Assembly: GCA_910574895.1 (NCBI GenBank)
Contig: CAJTDQ010000002.1
Coordinates: 124,001-188,000, forward strand
Origin: Eubacteriaceae bacterium
GTDB lineage: Bacteria; Bacillota; Clostridia; Lachnospirales; Lachnospiraceae
DNA: 64,000 nt
Direction: 5' to 3'
Positions 40,227-50,281 of this stretch are shown here, piece by piece. The notes below the pieces were generated by a model. It did no database searches, was not told where the DNA came from, and saw only the letters and a list, made by a program, of their open reading frames with translations. The first letter of the stretch is position 1, and each line of letters begins with the position of its first letter. A program made the translations under genes and the position numbers.

Positions 40227-40547
40227 ATGAAAAATATTGATTTTGATTCTATTGGAAAAAAGTTAAAAGAAATCCGAATTGCAAAAGGTCTTACTCAGGA
40301 ATATATTGCGAATGCTGTTGATGTAAATACCAGCCACATCAGTAACATAGAAAACGGCAGAGTAAAAATTTCTCTCACAACCCTTATCCTTGTTTGTAAT
40401 GCTTTAGGTACTACCGTTGACTATGTCCTTTCCAATGAATATGCAGACTCTTCTTCTGCAATTGATAATGCTATATTGACCGAGGTCCAGAAATGTAATT
40501 CTGATATGAAAGAACGTATCCTAAAAATCGTTCAGGCTTTACAGTAA
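40227..40547 (+). CDS. XRE-family transcriptional regulator
   Basis: This 106-residue protein has an N-terminal XRE helix-turn-helix (KKLKEIRIAKGLTQEYIANAVDVNTSHISNIENG) followed by a short helical tail. It is the only rightward gene of this part of the element and diverges from the leftward membrane protein cluster. The perfect inverted repeat in the shared promoter region (40143-40191) is a likely operator. It may repress the small membrane-protein cluster; no metalloprotease domain is attached. The start has a GAGGTAA site upstream. Confidence 0.88.
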   Translation: MKNIDFDSIGKKLKEIRIAKGLTQEYIANAVDVNTSHISNIENGRVKISLTTLILVCNALGTTVDYVLSNEYADSSSAIDNAILTEVQKCNSDMKERILKIVQALQ

Positions 40548-41453: not shown

Positions 41454-42317
41454 TTAACGCATTGATTTTACCTCTATACTGCCTAATTCCAAATCATAAT
41501 TTCTACCAGATGGAAACCCTGTGAACCCCGGTCTTGATATTGTATTTCTCGTATTATCATAGTATACGCTCAACAATCCTGTAAGTAAAAAATGAAAACC
41601 TAAATGCATTTCTTCTGGTTTATGAGTAAAAGATATATACTCAGCACTGTTATTATTCTTAGGTCTTTTTTTAAATATACTCCAACTATTAAGTGAAGCA
41701 ATATATCCCACTAAATCATCAAAGCTATCTTCCTTTGTATAAGTTTCTTGAAGTCTATCAAAAATCCATTGTTCAGTAGTTTCTTTCTTTTTTTCAAACG
41801 AATCCATCGAAACTAATGCTAAAAATGGTCCTCTTACTAGTTCTTTTTTATCATTAATGCAACGACATAATTTAGAGGCCTTTCGTAATGCATCTATCTC
41901 ATGAACAATATCCCTTTCATATAATTTTTTCTTTACGGAAATAATACCTATTACTCCTTCAGGTGGAACAATGACACTTTCCCCAAATCTTTGAAAAATA
42001 GGATATTGTGCACTATTATAAACCAATATATCTAATTGCGTAGAATGTCTATCTGCTTCATTCTTTCTGCTTTTATTATTTAGTCCCGTTTTTACAGCTG
42101 GACGTAGAATAAATCCAGTTAGCACTTCTAACTCTTTTGGTAAATACCGCTTTAAATATTCTCTAATTAACGTTTCAACATACCTACCATCTTCACCATT
42201 ATGATCCGCTCCATTTCTATCTTCCGCCGGAATCAATATCTGAAATTGCTTGTATGTATCTAACATAGCCTGCATTTCATTTGACCAATAATTTTGAATT
42301 CTTTTACCATCCATCAT
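41454..42317 (-). CDS. DUF6602-like, PD-(D/E)xK-type protein, TIR operon third gene
   Basis: This 287-residue protein has the core of a restriction-like fold: STQLDILVYNSAQYPIF (the Asp strand) followed by VIVPPEGVIGIISVKKKLY. It matches the DUF6602 family as I remember it. The usual Glu-x-Lys of the active site reads Ser-Val-Lys (ISVKK), so catalysis may be lost or use the Glu of PPEG. The start overlaps the HNH-like gene's stop (42314-42317), so the two are translationally coupled. Two consecutive ATG are possible starts. Together with the TIR gene this forms a candidate defence operon. Confidence 0.65.
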   Translation of the reverse strand: MMDGKRIQNYWSNEMQAMLDTYKQFQILIPAEDRNGADHNGEDGRYVETLIREYLKRYLPKELEVLTGFILRPAVKTGLNNKSRKNEADRHSTQLDILVYNSAQYPIFQRFGESVIVPPEGVIGIISVKKKLYERDIVHEIDALRKASKLCRCINDKKELVRGPFLALVSMDSFEKKKETTEQWIFDRLQETYTKEDSFDDLVGYIASLNSWSIFKKRPKNNNSAEYISFTHKPEEMHLGFHFLLTGLLSVYYDNTRNTISRPGFTGFPSGRNYDLELGSIEVKSMR

Positions 42318-43189
42318 AACTTCTCCATTATCTCTATATCACTTTGCATATCCTTATATATATCATATTTTTTTATATCTTCCCCAACTGCTTTTATTTT
42401 CTGCATAATTTTCTTTTTTTGCAAATCACTCATATTATTCATTTGCTCTTCTGCTAAACTCATCCAATATGAAAACTCATTGCCGACAACACTCGTCATC
42501 CTTTGATTCTCTGCACGGATATTTCCTATTCCATTCTTTATCCGAGTATTTATCCATTGCTCTTTTTCAGATTTATGATAAAATGTCACAAGTACAATTC
42601 CCATTAAATTTGATATGGTAAAATATGTATTTCCACAGCAATGTGTATAAGACGTAACCGACCTATTAACAGTTACATGCGGTTGTCTTAAAAACTCATC
42701 TGCATTTTGACCTGTAACATTTTTAATTCTATCAAAAAAGAAAATATGATGCTCTATATTCTCAATATCATTTCGTTTCCTTCTCAGGTAAGATTTCAAA
42801 ACACTTTCTGACTTTATTAAGCATTCCAATGCATCAATTGTAATTTCGTCTCCTGTTACAAAGTTTATTATATCCAAATATAAACTTCTCCAACTTAAAG
42901 AAGAAATAAAGTAATGTAGGTGTTCATCATAATCAAAATTAACTTCTTCATTTTTCAGTCTAGGATAAAAAATATTATTAGCAAACCATCTTTCCGCAGC
43001 ACTAAATAATTCTTCACAATCATGGCATAACAAATAATGTTTTTCCAAATCCTGAATTATTTTATTCGGATTCTCATAGTTTCGTATATTCCCAATAGAA
43101 GTCCCTTTCAAATGTCTTCCTACAAACTTAGGAATAATATGACTGAGTTGTAATTCTGTCTCATTTTCACACAATGCACACTTTCCCAT
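42314..43189 (-). CDS. HNH-like zinc-binding protein, TIR operon second gene
   Basis: This 291-residue protein opens MGKCALCENETELQLSHIIP, then LLCHDCEELF: Cys4, Cys7, His17, Cys55 and Cys58 form the zinc knuckle layout of HNH-type treble-clef proteins. The rest, about residues 75-290, is helical and unrecognised. It might be a nuclease or a zinc-stabilised recognition protein; the exact HNH catalytic set is not clear. It lies 99 bp downstream of the TIR gene and overlaps the DUF6602-like gene by four bases. The co-transcription with a TIR effector suggests phage defence. Confidence 0.65.
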   Translation of the reverse strand: MGKCALCENETELQLSHIIPKFVGRHLKGTSIGNIRNYENPNKIIQDLEKHYLLCHDCEELFSAAERWFANNIFYPRLKNEEVNFDYDEHLHYFISSLSWRSLYLDIINFVTGDEITIDALECLIKSESVLKSYLRRKRNDIENIEHHIFFFDRIKNVTGQNADEFLRQPHVTVNRSVTSYTHCCGNTYFTISNLMGIVLVTFYHKSEKEQWINTRIKNGIGNIRAENQRMTSVVGNEFSYWMSLAEEQMNNMSDLQKKKIMQKIKAVGEDIKKYDIYKDMQSDIEIMEKL

Positions 43190-43288: not shown

Positions 43289-44326
43289 CTATAATTCAAA
43301 TTCCATTTGTAATGCTTCTATTATTTCATTGAAAATATATGGCATTTCCCTTATCTGCATCATTTTCTCCTTTGTTCTTCCATAGTACTCTCTCATCATC
43401 GGATGTTCACTCGTACGTTCTAAAATATACCTAAAATCCTTAATAGATTCTCTTTTTACTTCTACTTTTGCATTTGATTGAAGTACCTCTATTAATTGTT
43501 TTCCCATATTGTATATCCAAGGATAATCATCTTGAAAAATACTTAAAGCAATTAAAAAACCATACTGCTTTTGACATCTAGGAAGTATCGTATGCATAAA
43601 TTCTTCTAGAAACATTCTTTTATACTTTTGATTTATTTCCTCCCTGCCTCTATCTTCTCTTCTTTCAAGTCTAGATAAAGATAAATCTATCTTTTCCTTT
43701 AATTCTTTAACACTTTCAGTCACAGTAGTATCTGGATTTCTTAATAATTTTTGATTGTCTCTCGACAATTCTAGTATCTCCTCTATTATTTTTAAAGAAT
43801 GTATATCATCTTTCTCTTCCATAATTTCGTCCGATATATTATCTGATAAATCTCTAATTTTATTAAGTTCCTCCTCCAAAGTCGGATACCATACATCAAA
43901 CGCTTTATCAAGCATCTGTTCAGAAATTCCTGTTTCCCCACAAGCCTTATTTAATGTATGTATTAATTTTTTTATATCATCCTTTTCAAATATTGTTGAC
44001 TGAAATTGCAAAATAGGACCATTTACTTCTGCACGTTTTATATTAAACAAAAATGGTGTTACAAAAGACTTGTCCATTGTTTTTGATAAAGCTCCTGCTT
44101 CAAATGAAAGCCATGGTGCATTTAAATTTTCTTTTGTAACACAAAGAATCCCAAATGTCGAATCTTCAAGTTCTTTCGCAATATCCGAACTCCATCGTGC
44201 TCCTTTATCAATATCTTCCGATGATACATATGGCTCTAATGATTGAATAACAGATGGTAACCATTCCCTAAAAACAAGTGCGACCTTATGACTTTTATTT
44301 CCTGACCAACTAATAAATACCTTCAT
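43289..44326 (-). CDS. TIR-domain protein, first gene of candidate defence operon
   Basis: The start at 44326 (MKVFISWSGNKSHKVAL) gives 345 residues. Residues 1-130 are a TIR domain: FISWSG opening, a DIAKELEDSTFGILCVTKENL middle and APWLSFEAGALSK, in which Glu76 is the likely NAD+-cleaving glutamate. The C-terminal 200 residues are helical, with a coiled-coil-like part (ESVKELKEKIDLSLSRLERREDRG). TIR enzymes degrade NAD+ or make signalling nucleotides in anti-phage systems. A clear promoter lies upstream and the HNH-like and DUF6602-like genes follow, so this operon is probably a conflict cassette; no known named system matches this gene set to my knowledge. Confidence 0.82.
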   Translation of the reverse strand: MKVFISWSGNKSHKVALVFREWLPSVIQSLEPYVSSEDIDKGARWSSDIAKELEDSTFGILCVTKENLNAPWLSFEAGALSKTMDKSFVTPFLFNIKRAEVNGPILQFQSTIFEKDDIKKLIHTLNKACGETGISEQMLDKAFDVWYPTLEEELNKIRDLSDNISDEIMEEKDDIHSLKIIEEILELSRDNQKLLRNPDTTVTESVKELKEKIDLSLSRLERREDRGREEINQKYKRMFLEEFMHTILPRCQKQYGFLIALSIFQDDYPWIYNMGKQLIEVLQSNAKVEVKRESIKDFRYILERTSEHPMMREYYGRTKEKMMQIREMPYIFNEIIEALQMEFEL

Positions 44327-44372
44327 TACCATATCCCCCTTTATTCTGAAATTTATTGATTTTATTATTTAT

Positions 44373-44401
44373 ATTATACTATAACTTTCTAATGAGTACA
44401 A
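44373..44401 (-). promoter_or_regulatory. Promoter of the TIR operon
   Basis: On the minus strand TTGTAC (44401-44396) and TATAAT (44378-44373) are separated by 17 bases. They lie about 50 bp upstream of the TIR start and no other gene is between. Good match to a housekeeping sigma-A promoter. Confidence 0.65.
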
Positions 44402-44475: not shown

Positions 44476-44510
44476 AAATGCGCAAGTGAGACTTTGCCAC
44501 TTACGCATTT
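44476..44510 (-). terminator. Terminator after the zinc/OB-like gene
   Basis: AAATGCG and AAGTG (44476-44488) pair with CACTT and CGCATTT (44498-44510) around a short loop with one bulge. It follows the 44530 stop codon on the minus strand and separates this gene from the TIR operon. Confidence 0.7.
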
Positions 44511-44529: not shown

Positions 44530-45462
44530 CTATTCTAACACAAATAATTGCTCTTTTACATTTATAAATGTGCTAAAATTATAATATTTTATATTCTTCC
44601 CTTCTCGTTCAGTAGAAATAATATTTCCAGTATAATGCCCACAGCCATATGCAACGACTTTTTTACCAATTAATTCTTTTGCATATTCATATACATCCTT
44701 ACTTTTTGTCATTATAGATAATGATATATATTCTCCCTCTCCTCTCCTGATAGAATAGTATTTTACTACATATAAATCCTTATCTTTCACTTTTTTTACT
44801 TCCTTTACTTCGCCTGAAAAGCAAATAGGATGATAGACTTTTTTCTTTTTTATTAATTCATATATATGCTCATATTGCTTTACATCATAATCAACATAAA
44901 AGTCCTTCCATTTGATTTCATCATACACTTTTTTATAATCGTTGAAAAATTGCAAAACAACTAAATCCCTAAGTTCCTTGTCATCATCCACCCTCTCCTT
45001 TAACTCTACAATTCTTTTCATTGTCTGTAAATAAGCTGGTTTTTCACCATTTCTTATATATTTTTTTGTTGACTTTTTTTCGGCAATCCCCTTTGGATTC
45101 TCTTTTATTTCTTTCTTTTTATCTTTTTTCTCTATACTTTCCGTAATAACATGCAATCTTGCAATATACTTGTTATCCTGCTTTGTCATCAAATCATCAT
45201 CTGCAACTTTCGCAAATATCTGTTTAATGGCATTACTCGTTATGTATTCACACCCATCCTTATGAGGACTCTGTTTACTTATTAATCTGAAATAAGATCT
45301 AACCCAAACCTCTCTATCTCCAACACTTTTTTGATGACCTGATACATGAGTTATTGGAACACCACAATATATACAAGTCAATTTATTTTTCATTGATTCT
45401 TTATACTCTTCTAATGTAATTTCTTTCCCATCAAACATTGCTTTTGACATTTTTATTCCCAT
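44530..45462 (-). CDS. Zinc-finger protein with CoiA-like N-terminus, unknown function
   Basis: This 310-residue protein starts MGIKMSKAMFDGKEITLEEY. Its N-terminal segment has CIYCGVPITHVSGH and later SPHKDGCEY, a Cys/His pattern resembling the zinc part of CoiA-like or other transport/defence proteins. The middle is very Lys/Glu-rich. The C-terminal third (HPICFSGEVKEVKKV...VVAYGCGHYTGNI) looks like a beta-rich domain, perhaps an OB fold. I do not recognise the family. The start has GGGAGG at good spacing. It lies between the TIR operon and the ImmA/IrrE gene and is separated from the TIR operon by a terminator. Confidence 0.6.
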   Translation of the reverse strand: MGIKMSKAMFDGKEITLEEYKESMKNKLTCIYCGVPITHVSGHQKSVGDREVWVRSYFRLISKQSPHKDGCEYITSNAIKQIFAKVADDDLMTKQDNKYIARLHVITESIEKKDKKKEIKENPKGIAEKKSTKKYIRNGEKPAYLQTMKRIVELKERVDDDKELRDLVVLQFFNDYKKVYDEIKWKDFYVDYDVKQYEHIYELIKKKKVYHPICFSGEVKEVKKVKDKDLYVVKYYSIRRGEGEYISLSIMTKSKDVYEYAKELIGKKVVAYGCGHYTGNIISTEREGKNIKYYNFSTFINVKEQLFVLE

Positions 45463-45520: not shown

Positions 45521-46717
45521 CTACTCATTTGTTGATGAACGTAACTTAACAATAGATACCACATTATCTTTCATTATTAAACTACCCTCTTTCAAATGCA
45601 AAAGTTCCTCAATTTCTTTAGGCCACAAAACAATACCCTTTTGATTAAACTCCTTTATCAATAATTTAGCATCTAAATAACCATTCGCAAATAAAATATC
45701 TATTGCCCCTTGGAAAATAGTATCATTAATTGTTCCTGGTACATCGCCTGGTTCATGTGTCCTCCAACCATTTTTCGAAACTCTTCTCATCATATATTGA
45801 AACTGATTAGTAGTAATTATATTAAGTTGATGTGCTCTGTACATCATTGCCTGTATAGATACCTTCCATTTCTTCTTTAAATATTTATAATACTCTAAAT
45901 CTGTTGGATATAATGAGACATCTTTCCCAAATGAGTTTTTTGGCAATAAAAAAGCACTGGCAAACATATTCGCTTGCTTTTCTATTCCGTTAAACTCATC
46001 CTTTTGAATATCATCTGTTTTTTCTTCCCATGTGTGTAAAAGTATATGCCCTAATTCATGTGCCATATCAAATCTTAGTCTCACTTCAGGTTTTGTCCCC
46101 AAAGCAACAGCAATTATATATCGCGATGTATTATTAACATTTATTATTCTTTGGCTAAATGCATCTATTTTTTGATTAACTCCCTCAAACCCTGTCACAA
46201 TAATCCCATTTTTTTCGAGTATATATTGTAAATTTTCAATTGGTCCTTCTCCCAATTCCCAATACTCACGAACATAATTTGATACCTTTTCAATTTCTTG
46301 CAACACACCTTCTGAATCATATTCATCTACTTTATCGCTACCTTTAAAATCTACTGACGGTAAATTTATATATGGAAAATCAACATACTTCAAGAAAACC
46401 TCATACATTTTTGCTACATACTCTAACTTTATTGATTGCGCTAATCTATCTTTTTTAGTCACACTAGCCTGTGAGCGAAAATATGTGTTGCTAGTTATCG
46501 TTTCATATTTATCCTCTGATACAAAAAACTCATATGGAAACTGTAAAGCTCTAGACAATAACACAACATTTTCATGTGGTGGTACATTTTCATTCTTTTC
46601 ATATAAAGATAAAGATTGTTTACTTATCCCAACTAATCTTGACAAATCTGTTATTCCCAATCCACGATATTTTCGTGCGGTCGTCAATCTACTTCCAATA
46701 AATTTCTTATTATTCAT
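45521..46717 (-). CDS. XRE regulator fused to ImmA/IrrE metallopeptidase
   Basis: This 398-residue protein has an N-terminal helix-turn-helix (LTTARKYRGLGITDLSRLVGISKQSLSLYE, about residues 10-45) and an ImmA/IrrE-type zinc peptidase: RFDMAHELGHILLHT with His220, Glu221 and His224, and Glu246 in the following EKQANMFASAFLLP. Such proteins regulate mobile elements and toxin-antitoxin modules by cutting a repressor or by direct binding. It lies 26 bp downstream of the DUF5986-like gene, and the two form a compact pair. It probably controls the pair or the element in response to DNA damage; no LexA-type partner is near. Confidence 0.88.
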   Translation of the reverse strand: MNNKKFIGSRLTTARKYRGLGITDLSRLVGISKQSLSLYEKNENVPPHENVVLLSRALQFPYEFFVSEDKYETITSNTYFRSQASVTKKDRLAQSIKLEYVAKMYEVFLKYVDFPYINLPSVDFKGSDKVDEYDSEGVLQEIEKVSNYVREYWELGEGPIENLQYILEKNGIIVTGFEGVNQKIDAFSQRIINVNNTSRYIIAVALGTKPEVRLRFDMAHELGHILLHTWEEKTDDIQKDEFNGIEKQANMFASAFLLPKNSFGKDVSLYPTDLEYYKYLKKKWKVSIQAMMYRAHQLNIITTNQFQYMMRRVSKNGWRTHEPGDVPGTINDTIFQGAIDILFANGYLDAKLLIKEFNQKGIVLWPKEIEELLHLKEGSLIMKDNVVSIVKLRSSTNE

Positions 46718-46743: not shown

Positions 46744-47478
46744 TTATGCCTTCTTCTCAACAACACGTAATTTAGGTTTTATTCCCGATTTAACGCTAAC
46801 TAATGCCTGTGTCTTGTCTTCTTCATGTACATTTTCGTCAATAACTTCAATTTCTGTAAGACGTCCAAAATCAGGTTTCAGATATTCATTCAAAGAATAT
46901 TCTTCGATAACATCGAAATCTTTATCTAAAAACATCAAAGAAATATCTGTAACTTCTCTATGCTCAACTTCGTACACAATTACATAATGCCTATACTCAT
47001 CATCTTTACCAACCATCCCCTGCATTATTTTAACAAAGTCACTTTCTAATTCCTCAGCATCAAAACTTACAAATCCCATTTCAGCATAATCGCTCAAGGA
47101 CATTTGTTTTACTGGTGCCTTACAATCACCGTTCTCCACAAATAATATTGATTGCAAATAATGCGGCATCGTTCTACCTTTCTTTCTCGGTATTGCCTCA
47201 AGTGTTCTCCTTGTTGTAACTGTATACGTCTTTTTATCTTTCTTATCATGCAAAATACGACCTGACCACCCATTTCTATTAAAAGGAATTAATTCTATTT
47301 CATTATAAACAACAAAGTCGCGTAAATTTTGATTCAAGAAATCGCCTCTTAAAAATGGCAATGCATTATATGTTTCCATATGGTGTTCTTGTAAATAGTT
47401 TATTGTATCTTCTCCACACGCTTTCTCCACCGCTCTTACAGTTTTTCTTAATAACTCTTCATTAATGTTTATTGACAT
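46744..47478 (-). CDS. DUF5986-like protein, partner of the XRE-ImmA/IrrE gene
   Basis: This 244-residue soluble protein (MSININEELLRKTVRAVEK...) has a recognisable middle (FNRNGWSGRILHDKKDKKTYTV, RKKGRTMPHYLQSILFVENGD), which I recall from DUF5986-like proteins found beside HTH-ImmA/IrrE genes. No catalytic motif is evident. The pair is a plausible toxin-antitoxin or abortive-infection module. Upstream at about 47500-47530 the minus strand holds two AGTAAAAA/TGTAAAAA repeats next to a TTGACA, a possible regulated promoter. Confidence 0.6.
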   Translation of the reverse strand: MSININEELLRKTVRAVEKACGEDTINYLQEHHMETYNALPFLRGDFLNQNLRDFVVYNEIELIPFNRNGWSGRILHDKKDKKTYTVTTRRTLEAIPRKKGRTMPHYLQSILFVENGDCKAPVKQMSLSDYAEMGFVSFDAEELESDFVKIMQGMVGKDDEYRHYVIVYEVEHREVTDISLMFLDKDFDVIEEYSLNEYLKPDFGRLTEIEVIDENVHEEDKTQALVSVKSGIKPKLRVVEKKA

Positions 47479-47655: not shown

Positions 47656-47904
47656 CTATATCTTATTAATATAATCATACAGAGCCTCTTTTCCCTGCTG
47701 TAATTCAATATCACAAGCCCTACAAAGATACTCGTTTGTTTCTAAAAACAATCTGGTTTCAAAATCATTCAACAATTTATACAATTCCATTTCTAGTAAC
47801 TGCTTATATGCCATATCATGATTTATTTGTTTTTCGTTCATTATGTGTTTTGTTAAGGCAACAACACACATCCCCAAAGCTGTATTCATTTTGCTTTCAT
47901 TCAT
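47656..47904 (-). CDS. Small protein, third gene of the DUF3990 cassette
   Basis: The start at 47904 (MNESKMNTALGMCVVALTK) follows GGAGATAGGGTT and gives 82 residues. The protein is helical, with LETNEYLCRACDIELQQG near residue 60. It appears to be the last member of the cassette: it begins five bases after the DUF3990 gene ends. I recall this small protein as a regular companion of DUF3990 genes, but cannot name its family with confidence. It could be an antitoxin or a regulator of the cassette. Confidence 0.6.
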   Translation of the reverse strand: MNESKMNTALGMCVVALTKHIMNEKQINHDMAYKQLLEMELYKLLNDFETRLFLETNEYLCRACDIELQQGKEALYDYINKI

Positions 47905-47908
47905 AACC

Positions 47909-48460
47909 CTATCTCCAATCAATCTTGGCAATGCTTTCTATGATTTTATCCGCAACATCCTGCTTCCCAATAAAATATTGTATTCCAAGATTCTCCGTTT
48001 CTAAATTTTTTAGCAATATCTCTTTTGCTTCAATCGAGCCAATTTTGCCATAAAGACCTTCATGATATGCTCTTAAACAAAAGGCTGTGTCATCATCCGC
48101 CGTAGGACCTATAACCAAGTCATAATCATGTGGTGTGCCACCCTGTTCTCTACACATCAAGACAAAATCTAACCATTCCATATCCGCACTAACAAACACT
48201 TTTATCTTAATGTCCTTCAAAATAGATTCATTTAGTCTTATTTCGTATAAGTTTTCTACAAAATCTTCACTTCGCTTGCTTCTACTTCTCCTTACCATCT
48301 CTCGGAATTTCTTATGCATCATTCCGATTGCCTGTGATTTCGTAAGGGCAATATAAAATCCTTTTCCAAAATCTTTTCTGTCACGCCCCAAAGACACATC
48401 AACTTTATTTATCTCGGAAATTGTTCCATGATACAAGGTTGTCTTAATATCCTGACACAT
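47909..48460 (-). CDS. DUF3990 ADP-ribosyltransferase-like protein (candidate toxin)
   Basis: This 183-residue protein fits DUF3990, which has an ADP-ribosyltransferase-like fold: TLYHGTISEINKVDV near the start, GKGFYIALTKSQAIGMM, and LVIGPTADDDTAF. The His of YHG and the later Tyr would be in the NAD-binding site. It is flanked by two short genes in one operon, a DUF3791-type gene upstream (overlapping by 17 bp) and another small gene downstream, the usual arrangement of this toxin-antitoxin-like cassette in gut Firmicutes. Toxicity by ADP-ribosylation is inference from the fold. Confidence 0.8.
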   Translation of the reverse strand: MCQDIKTTLYHGTISEINKVDVSLGRDRKDFGKGFYIALTKSQAIGMMHKKFREMVRRSRSKRSEDFVENLYEIRLNESILKDIKIKVFVSADMEWLDFVLMCREQGGTPHDYDLVIGPTADDDTAFCLRAYHEGLYGKIGSIEAKEILLKNLETENLGIQYFIGKQDVADKIIESIAKIDWR

Positions 48461-48656
48461 ATTCTTCTATCTCCTTTACCATTTCTTCATCTGTCATTGG
48501 ATCAAATATATCCGGACACTCCGAAACATAATTTATAATTTCATATTTATCATCTAACTCTAAAAACTCTTCTGTCGAAATGTTATGTGCTTTACAATAA
48601 TTTTTTGTAACTAAAAACATTAAAAATATTGTGTTATTTAATCTCTTTTCTGACAT
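48444..48656 (-). CDS. DUF3791 family small protein (putative antitoxin)
   Basis: This 70-residue acidic protein (MSEKRLNNTIFLMFLVTKNYCKAH..., ending EEYVSGY) matches the DUF3791 family, which regularly precedes DUF3990 genes. It is translated first and overlaps the DUF3990 start by 17 bp, so the two are coupled. By analogy with other ADP-ribosyltransferase cassettes it would be the antidote. It is the first gene of the element's right-hand cassette, and no other coding gene lies between it and the attachment repeat. Confidence 0.75.
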   Translation of the reverse strand: MSEKRLNNTIFLMFLVTKNYCKAHNISTEEFLELDDKYEIINYVSECPDIFDPMTDEEMVKEIEEYVSGY

Positions 48657-49057: not shown

Positions 49058-50281
49058 TTATATCATCCATATCGGCACAATGTAATTATCTCTATCAATA
49101 GCACTTAACCCTGGCTTCATACAAATCACTGCTCCCTTTGAACGTGGAGTAGATGACTTATCTAACAAGCTAAATACTTTTATTAATTCTGTACCGGGAT
49201 TAGATGTTTTCTTAATTTCTATTGGATTAAGAACCCCATCATGTTCCAAAACAATGTCAATCTCTTTTGCATCCTTGTCACGATAATAATATAAATATGG
49301 TTCCTTTCCACAATTTAAATACGTCTTCATAATTTCAGCAACTACATAGTTTTCCAATATAGCTCCATTCATAGCACCACTTTCTAAAGTTTCTGCACTA
49401 CTCCACTTTGTCAAATAGCAGACTAATCCCGTATCATAAAAATATAACTTTGGTGTTTTCACAAGACGTTTTAACAAATTGTTCGAATATGGATGGAGAT
49501 AAAAAATAATACCTAGTGTTTCTAAAATTCCTAGCCAATTCTTTGCCTGCACTTGATTTATATCTGCATCCCTCGCGATTTCTGCTACATTTAACATTTG
49601 ACCACATCTTGCAGCTACAGCAGTTATAAATCTCAAAAACTTTAATGAATCAATCGCATCTGATAATTCTTTTACATCACGCTCTATATACGTACTCAAA
49701 TAACTATTATAAAAAATCTGACTGTTACTATTTGCGCCACTTACAATAGCCGGCATTGAACCTCTATAAATACGTTCAAAAATATCCTTTGTATCCGCTT
49801 CTTCTCTTTCTTCTTTTCTTAATGACAATGCATCCATGTCAACTGTAAATGGTTTCATTTGGCCACCACTTATCTCTGCTTGCGATAAAGAAGTCAAAGG
49901 AAGTACAGCTACTCTACCCGCAAGGGATTCTTGTACTCCTCTCATTAACTTAAAAACTTGCGAACCTGTAAGCCAGAAGGCTCCGGGTTCATGATTTTTA
50001 TCCACGTGCATTTTAATATAAGTAAATAGTTCCGGTGCATATTGCACCTCATCAATTAATACAGGTGGTTTGTGTAACTGAAGAAACAATTCAGGATCTG
50101 TCTTTGCAATATTCCTTTCATTCAAATCATCCAAAGATACATATCCTCTATTTGTCCCTTCCATCAATTTTTGAAGCATCGTAGTCTTTCCAACTTGTCT
50201 AGGTCCGGTAACAAGAACAACTGGATATTCTGTTGTAACCTGACTTACCACTTTTTCTAGATTTCTTGTAATATATTTCAT
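49058..50281 (-). CDS. AAA ATPase with DUF4143 C-terminal domain
   Basis: This 407-residue protein has an N-terminal P-loop ATPase (VTGPRQVGKTTMLQKL, Walker B PPVLIDEVQYAPELF, sensor LTGSQVFKLM) followed by a DUF4143 domain in residues 180-407 (YLSTYIERDVKEL, TPKLYFYDTGLVCYL and the nuclease-like EIDIVLEHDGVLNPIEIK). Such proteins occur in many bacteria and are thought to be ATP-dependent DNA-binding or nuclease-like factors of unknown role. It lies beside the original upstream sequence of the PTP gene. Its promoter region carries four copies of an inverted GCCGAAATA motif at 30-bp steps. Confidence 0.88.
   Translation of the reverse strand: MKYITRNLEKVVSQVTTEYPVVLVTGPRQVGKTTMLQKLMEGTNRGYVSLDDLNERNIAKTDPELFLQLHKPPVLIDEVQYAPELFTYIKMHVDKNHEPGAFWLTGSQVFKLMRGVQESLAGRVAVLPLTSLSQAEISGGQMKPFTVDMDALSLRKEEREEADTKDIFERIYRGSMPAIVSGANSNSQIFYNSYLSTYIERDVKELSDAIDSLKFLRFITAVAARCGQMLNVAEIARDADINQVQAKNWLGILETLGIIFYLHPYSNNLLKRLVKTPKLYFYDTGLVCYLTKWSSAETLESGAMNGAILENYVVAEIMKTYLNCGKEPYLYYYRDKDAKEIDIVLEHDGVLNPIEIKKTSNPGTELIKVFSLLDKSSTPRSKGAVICMKPGLSAIDRDNYIVPIWMI

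Follow-up and report, generated by a model that had tools for sequence, protein, structure and literature searches.

The 64,000-nucleotide stretch analyzed here (the window), from contig CAJTDQ010000002.1 of a Eubacteriaceae bacterium from the gut, carries a gene for a TIR-domain protein that is followed by genes for an HNH-like zinc-type protein and a DUF6602 protein, a set that a sequence-only reading had taken for an undescribed three-gene system. The open frames confirm that the three genes lie on the minus strand at the coordinates first proposed, and that the last two overlap by four bases:

43289..44332, minus: TIR protein gene, 347 amino acids (aa), or 345 aa from the second ATG at 44326; PADLOC TIR-TM, 386.8 bits; TIR domain at about residues 1-150, then a linker, then a C-terminal helical domain
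44099..44101, minus: codon of the putative catalytic glutamate, E78 (E76 from the second ATG), in WLSFEAG
42314..43189, minus: HNH-like zinc-type protein gene, 291 aa, with invariant C4, C7, H17, C55, and C58
41454..42317, minus: DUF6602 protein gene, 287 aa, with a NucC-like PD-(D/E)XK region in which Ser replaces the Glu of ExK
44373..44401, minus: promoter-like TTGTAC-17-TATAAT 5' of the TIR gene, not above chance alone
44476..44510, minus: terminator-like hairpin between the TIR gene and the upstream gene, z -3.5

The bases shared by the HNH-like and DUF6602 frames are 42314-42317, and a 99-bp gap separates the TIR gene from the HNH-like gene. The second ATG (44326) is the likelier start of the TIR gene, since GGGGG sits 8 nucleotides 5' of it, versus 2 nucleotides 5' of the first ATG, and MKVF is the protein start in many TIR relatives; counted from this ATG, the number 76 given earlier to the glutamate is correct (residue 78 from the first). 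The promoter that had been assigned to the TIR gene is present as a sequence, but its significance did not hold up: given a 3/6 match in the -35 element TTGTAC and no excess of promoter-like sites over shuffles (49 in the window versus 42.6 ± 7.6), it carries little weight, and the promoter scan did not list it. The hairpin at 44476-44510 is better evidence for a separate TIR unit. As to an operon headed by the TIR gene, the absence of any terminator-like site in the 99-bp gap agrees with that claim, whereas a weak promoter-like site lies at 43313-43286, between the TIR and HNH-like genes; judging from these signals, co-transcription of the two genes is possible.

The TIR domain was correctly recognized. 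Its Pfam TIR_2 match is barely over the cut-off (28.4 versus 28 bits), and structure prediction with fold comparison assigns a TIR fold to the first 150 residues. The comparison spanned about residues 1-151 and barely covered the C-terminal half, for which we make no new-fold claim; this half is modelled as helices at residues 170-346, in line with the helical half described earlier. The WxxxExG motif with its catalytic-type glutamate is kept in all 123 distinct TIR relatives examined, so that the proposed active-site residue is indeed retained. Its position agrees roughly with E192 of SpbK, judged by the aligned range, and other TIR NADases suggest a catalytic role for it. Neither the TIR family nor the HNH family yielded a convincing relative in PDB sequence searches, and crude hydropathy predicted no membrane segment in the TIR, HNH-like, DUF6602, or upstream-gene proteins.

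The PADLOC model TIR-TM (PDLC03016) scores the window TIR at 386.8 bits, versus 393.1 for the TIR protein of phage AC1 itself, and matches 36 of the 36 sequences in the full-length TIR alignment (A4), the window's included. Because the score is so near that of AC1's own protein, the TIR protein is not of an unlisted family; by profile match, it belongs to the already listed family TIR-TM. The earlier statement that the set resembles no named system thus stands for the set, which is unlisted, but not for its TIR component. A literature search pairing TIR-TM with PADLOC found no paper, a bacterial TIR defence gene was in none of the matches listed for stand-alone, orphan, or solo TIR, and the accessible part of PMC9090908 contains nothing on the family. 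The component names of the 2TM-1TM-TIR system occur in one paper, and the matches listed by a broader literature search were all unrelated.

At the AC1 locus, PADLOC names three proteins 2TM-TIR, 1TM-TIR, and TIR-TM. As described by Rousset et al. 2022 (PMC9122126), lysogens of the P2-like phage AC1 resist lambda and LF82_P8, the three cloned genes give the same resistance, and a nucleotide messenger was proposed for the AC1 TIR. The window TIR is of the same PADLOC family and is 52% identical to AC1's over residues 2-206. However, its C-terminal half does not align with that of AC1 (E 5.2), so it is not simply AC1's protein minus its partners, and its class is found with changing neighbours. 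A tblastn search across all 64 kb of the window turned up no 2TM or 1TM relative (best E 0.12 and 0.13), and none was found at the examined TIR loci other than AC1.

We compared 132 TIR loci: 80 on genome contigs (the best 80 of 390), 39 on viral contigs, nine from plasmids, phages, and a family genome (5 of 11 plasmid and 2 of 4 phage records were taken), and four of the window's own. The 128 that are not the window's comprise 123 distinct loci, of which 95 extend 3 kb or more downstream and 70 reach 3 kb on both sides. Outside the window, the contexts of all 20 distinct HNH loci (3 of 10 plasmid and 0 of 1 phage records taken) and all 6 distinct DUF6602 loci were inspected. Viral-contig searches with single sequences gave none for P0001 (the TIR) and none confirmed for P0003, and alignment queries did better. 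At none of the 123 TIR loci did tblastn (E 1e-4) find an HNH or DUF6602 relative in the available flank; the nearest tree row (L024), whose TIR part is 91% identical, also lacks both. At least two of the three genes occur together only at the window's own four loci and at L018, which has HNH and DUF6602. Among the 397 family genomes sampled, the window's included, the TIR occurs in 2 (E 1e-5), DUF6602 in 3 (E 1e-5), and HNH in 6 (E 1e-10), and a phylum-wide DUF6602 search (E 1e-20) matched 1 of 398, the window genome itself. A conserved TIR-HNH-DUF6602 trio was therefore rejected: the 123 TIR, 20 HNH, and 6 DUF6602 loci hold no second one, and the proposed three-gene system is not supported, lack of recurrence being among the outcomes that the sequence-only reading had itself named as refuting it.

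To place the window TIR among its relatives, we used a tree of 81 proteins, 54 full-length (at least 320 aa) and 27 shorter, on which this label changes 5 times, versus 22.5 in shuffles. The window TIR lies among the full-length rows, and its C-terminal domain is conserved across this wide class. By path, the nearest rows are a Lachnospiraceae protein and several from Bacteroidota, the latter 60-64% identical to the window's Bacillota protein, which speaks for a transfer of the gene across phyla; the window TIR falls into no strongly supported set, and many deep forks are open. No neighbour is common to more than a few relatives. Among 91 TIR loci (the 39 viral ones set aside and near-copies not counted), the largest neighbour family, transporter-like, occurs at 5, followed by integrases and small toxin-antitoxin-like genes at 3 loci. 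In the full-length class, 16 of 53 loci lack any co-directional gene within 250 bp (a contig end cuts 2 of these).

Some TIR loci show settings of their own. Nearly identical TIR genes lie 210 bp behind tandem tyrosine recombinases at four loci (L034, L035, L037, and L066), three of whose contigs are titled Lachnospiraceae, an arrangement that is possibly a mobile cassette. Two Gloeothece plasmids (L022, 4007-4849, and L023, 4001-4834) also carry TIR-TM relatives (176 and 223 bits) beside type III CRISPR genes; the one in L022 is 98 bp before cas10 and scores slightly higher, at 187 bits, with the PADLOC model “CRISPR-T, unknown function”. L025 and L099 share a pair next to the TIR gene, made up of a two-TM protein and a second, small one, that may resemble the TM-macro/Thoeris type.

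Taken together, we consider it fairly probable that the TIR gene encodes an autonomous, horizontally moved one-gene NADase defence protein and that the HNH-like and DUF6602 genes are separate. The nearest functional parallel is SpbK of Bacillus subtilis ICEBs1, a 267-aa protein whose N-terminal sensing domain binds a phage portal protein, whereupon its TIR domain destroys NAD+ (Loyo and Grossman 2025, PMC11984713). By analogy, the TIR domain of the window protein would be an NADase that is silent until infection, while the C-terminal helical domain would either sense a phage product or keep the protein inactive. Upon triggering, TIR domains would assemble and NAD+ would be destroyed, so that the infected cell would stop growing before phage production, an SpbK-like abortive infection with the domain order reversed. 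The HNH-like and DUF6602 genes would then be separate defence-island genes that landed behind the TIR gene.

Several observations weigh against this explanation. The glutamate-bearing segment (residues 78-85) is modelled at a predicted local distance difference test (pLDDT) score below 50, with a whole-model predicted template modelling score of 0.47, and no TIR protein in the PDB was matched well by sequence; the SpbK PDB chain gives no match to the window TIR within E ≤ 1. Moreover, the sensor is N-terminal in SpbK and would be C-terminal here. AC1, the sole tested relative, was assayed with its three genes together, two of which encode membrane proteins (PMC9122126), so that defence by a lone TIR-TM gene is a prediction. 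With regard to neighbours, the downstream DNA available at 28 of the 123 TIR loci is shorter than 3 kb, and at one TIR locus (L032) a protein encoded 2 kb downstream is weakly related (32% over 100 aa, E 4e-6) to the SEC-C/HNH-looking protein that L018 has ahead of DUF6602. A co-directional gene lies within 250 bp at 37 of the 53 full-length class loci. Finally, a small gene with a membrane segment predicted by crude hydropathy is among the nearest two at 9/53 full-length and 5/24 shorter-class loci, which keeps unlike membrane partners conceivable there.

The two downstream families were considered in their own right. In the HNH-like, zinc-type protein, Cys and His residues are invariant across the family alignment (A3), but the HNH assignment is weak, all HNH matches being below threshold: HNH_5 matches at E 0.085 (13.2 versus 27.5 bits), and among 8 family members scanned at E ≤ 0.1, HNH_5 appears in 2 and HNH_2 in 1. 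Its relatives trail an annotated DNA methyltransferase (L014), what we take to be a restriction-type subunit (L009) and a helicase pair (L010), and otherwise phage and plasmid genes; some neighbours presumably represent type III restriction-modification, helicase, TM-macro, and toxin-antitoxin genes. The gene is best read as an independent neighbour.

In contrast, the DUF6602 assignment is firm (67.5 versus 27 bits), and the restriction fold proposed for this protein is upheld by its NucC-like catalytic region. NucC is a messenger-activated nuclease with the catalytic residues D, E, and K of PD-(D/E)XK. PADLOC NucC models match the DUF6602 protein at E 1.9e-8 and 2.6e-6, and the family profile matches PDB NucC at E 5.8e-6. 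D96 and K129 align with NucC, but the similarity spans part of the protein only and the full catalytic set is not present: the Glu of ExK is Ser in 6 of the 7 family sequences compared. The Glu is present in the remaining one (L106), which nevertheless looks degenerate, since it opens late as a frame and is missing other conserved residues. E140, which is conserved, might stand in for the lost Glu. As structure prediction was poor (pLDDT 39.0 with 3 sequences), the fold assignment draws only on sequence profiles, and a literature search for DUF6602 found no paper.

DUF6602 genes elsewhere have varied company. One (L019, 8240-9562) lies 15 bp behind the C terminus of a retron-type reverse transcriptase (PADLOC RT_I-B, E 6.7e-19) at a contig end and is possibly a retron-like effector. 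Another (L104, 6001-8171) has a Swt1-like HEPN gene 35 bp downstream and adjoins a primase that we take to be P4-alpha-like. At two similar loci (L105 and L106, 2663-6882), PDC-M28-type ATPase genes lie upstream of the DUF6602 gene, which is intact in L105 and degenerate-looking in L106; the PDC-M28 models were run on L106. On a Rhizobium plasmid, there is no evident partner. This gene, too, is best read as an independent neighbour; found beside such unlike sensors, it may be a shared effector part.

Alternatively, the TIR could act alone while the two genes downstream of it, HNH-like and DUF6602, make up a separate, translationally coupled system, which we regard as unlikely. Such a pair would explain the four-base overlap and the co-occurrence of both families in 2 of the 397 family genomes, the window's included (Fisher 5.7e-4, or 0.025 without the window's genome), and in the other genome (G131, locus L018) DUF6602 lies 38 bp behind another SEC-C/HNH-looking gene. 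Nevertheless, the HNH relative itself trails qatABCD in L018 (643-6496, PADLOC names) and is about 6 kb from DUF6602 with qatABCD between. HNH also recurs behind a same-looking qatABCD set, with no DUF6602, in L116 and L157, which are near-copies and thus not independent; L116 (G223) has a stop inside the HNH frame. Only 1 of 20 distinct outside HNH loci has DUF6602; in view of these contexts, the pair is unproven despite its suggestive co-occurrence.

Quite improbable, in our view, is a three-gene system in which the TIR makes a messenger from NAD+ that activates a NucC-like DUF6602 DNA cutter, with HNH as a second nuclease or adaptor. The gene order, the gap and overlap described above, the resemblance of DUF6602 to the catalytic region of NucC, and the messenger proposed for the AC1 TIR (PMC9122126) would fit this model, but it has no comparative support: no second trio exists among the loci inspected, DUF6602 and HNH relatives each sit by different genes, and the substitution of Ser in ExK would have to be accommodated. 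A rare working hybrid is very unlikely; here, DUF6602 would be a plug-in effector responding as a NucC-like nuclease to a TIR nucleotide signal made from NAD+, with an HNH-like adaptor, and sensors of different kinds (TIR, HEPN, PDC-M28 ATPase, or retron-like reverse transcriptase modules) would recruit it. The TIR-TM assignment and the window-wide absence of 2TM and 1TM relatives might suggest a non-functional remnant of a 2TM-1TM-TIR system whose membrane partners were lost. This is likewise highly doubtful, given the intact frame, the widely conserved C-terminal domain, and the fact that AC1 is the only examined locus with such relatives, which makes the class unlike a set of recent losses.

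Other named systems were assessed with PADLOC- and Pfam-type model scans of 16 window proteins, not every open reading frame. Their matches include no Thoeris model, such as a ThsA-type effector (ThcB4 scores 15.5 versus a cut-off of 220 bits), no CBASS/Pycsar nucleotide cyclase, and, in contrast to SPARTA TIR-APAZ, no Argonaute or APAZ model; no NTPase model such as the STAND domain of TIR-NLR/Avs matches the TIR protein. The CBASS regulator models capP and capH match the RmrA-like protein as well, with 75.4 and 17.2 bits, respectively, scores far lower than the 426.9 bits of RmrA, and capH matches 40227-40547 at 43.9 bits. The placement beside other conflict genes is supported, with phage-type YqaJ and DUF932 genes also nearby. 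These conflict genes and two further features of the window are as follows:

44530-45462: gene upstream of the TIR gene, 310-aa protein with a weak zinc-ribbon-like N terminus below cut-offs; no relative at any examined outside locus
45521-46717 and 46744-47478: RosmerTA pair, RmrA 426.9 bits and RmrT/DUF5986 110.9 bits (PADLOC)
47656-48656: DUF3791-DUF3990 set, matching candidate defence PDC-M13
49058-50281: AAA_14/DUF4143 ATPase, candidate PDC-S01, 375 bits
6708-6792: ZMP/ZTP riboswitch, 63.9 bits

RosmerTA has been described as a toxin-antitoxin system that defends against phage (PMC10440598).

These results correct a tempting call of a three-gene system, in that the two genes behind the TIR appear to be neighbours in their own right and not components of a new system. 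They also suggest that one TIR-TM class, spread over many phyla and equipped with its own conserved C-terminal helical domain, does without the membrane partners of AC1. The calling of the AC1 system presumably requires the 2TM and 1TM genes; if the TIR defends alone, rules of this kind would miss much of the family.
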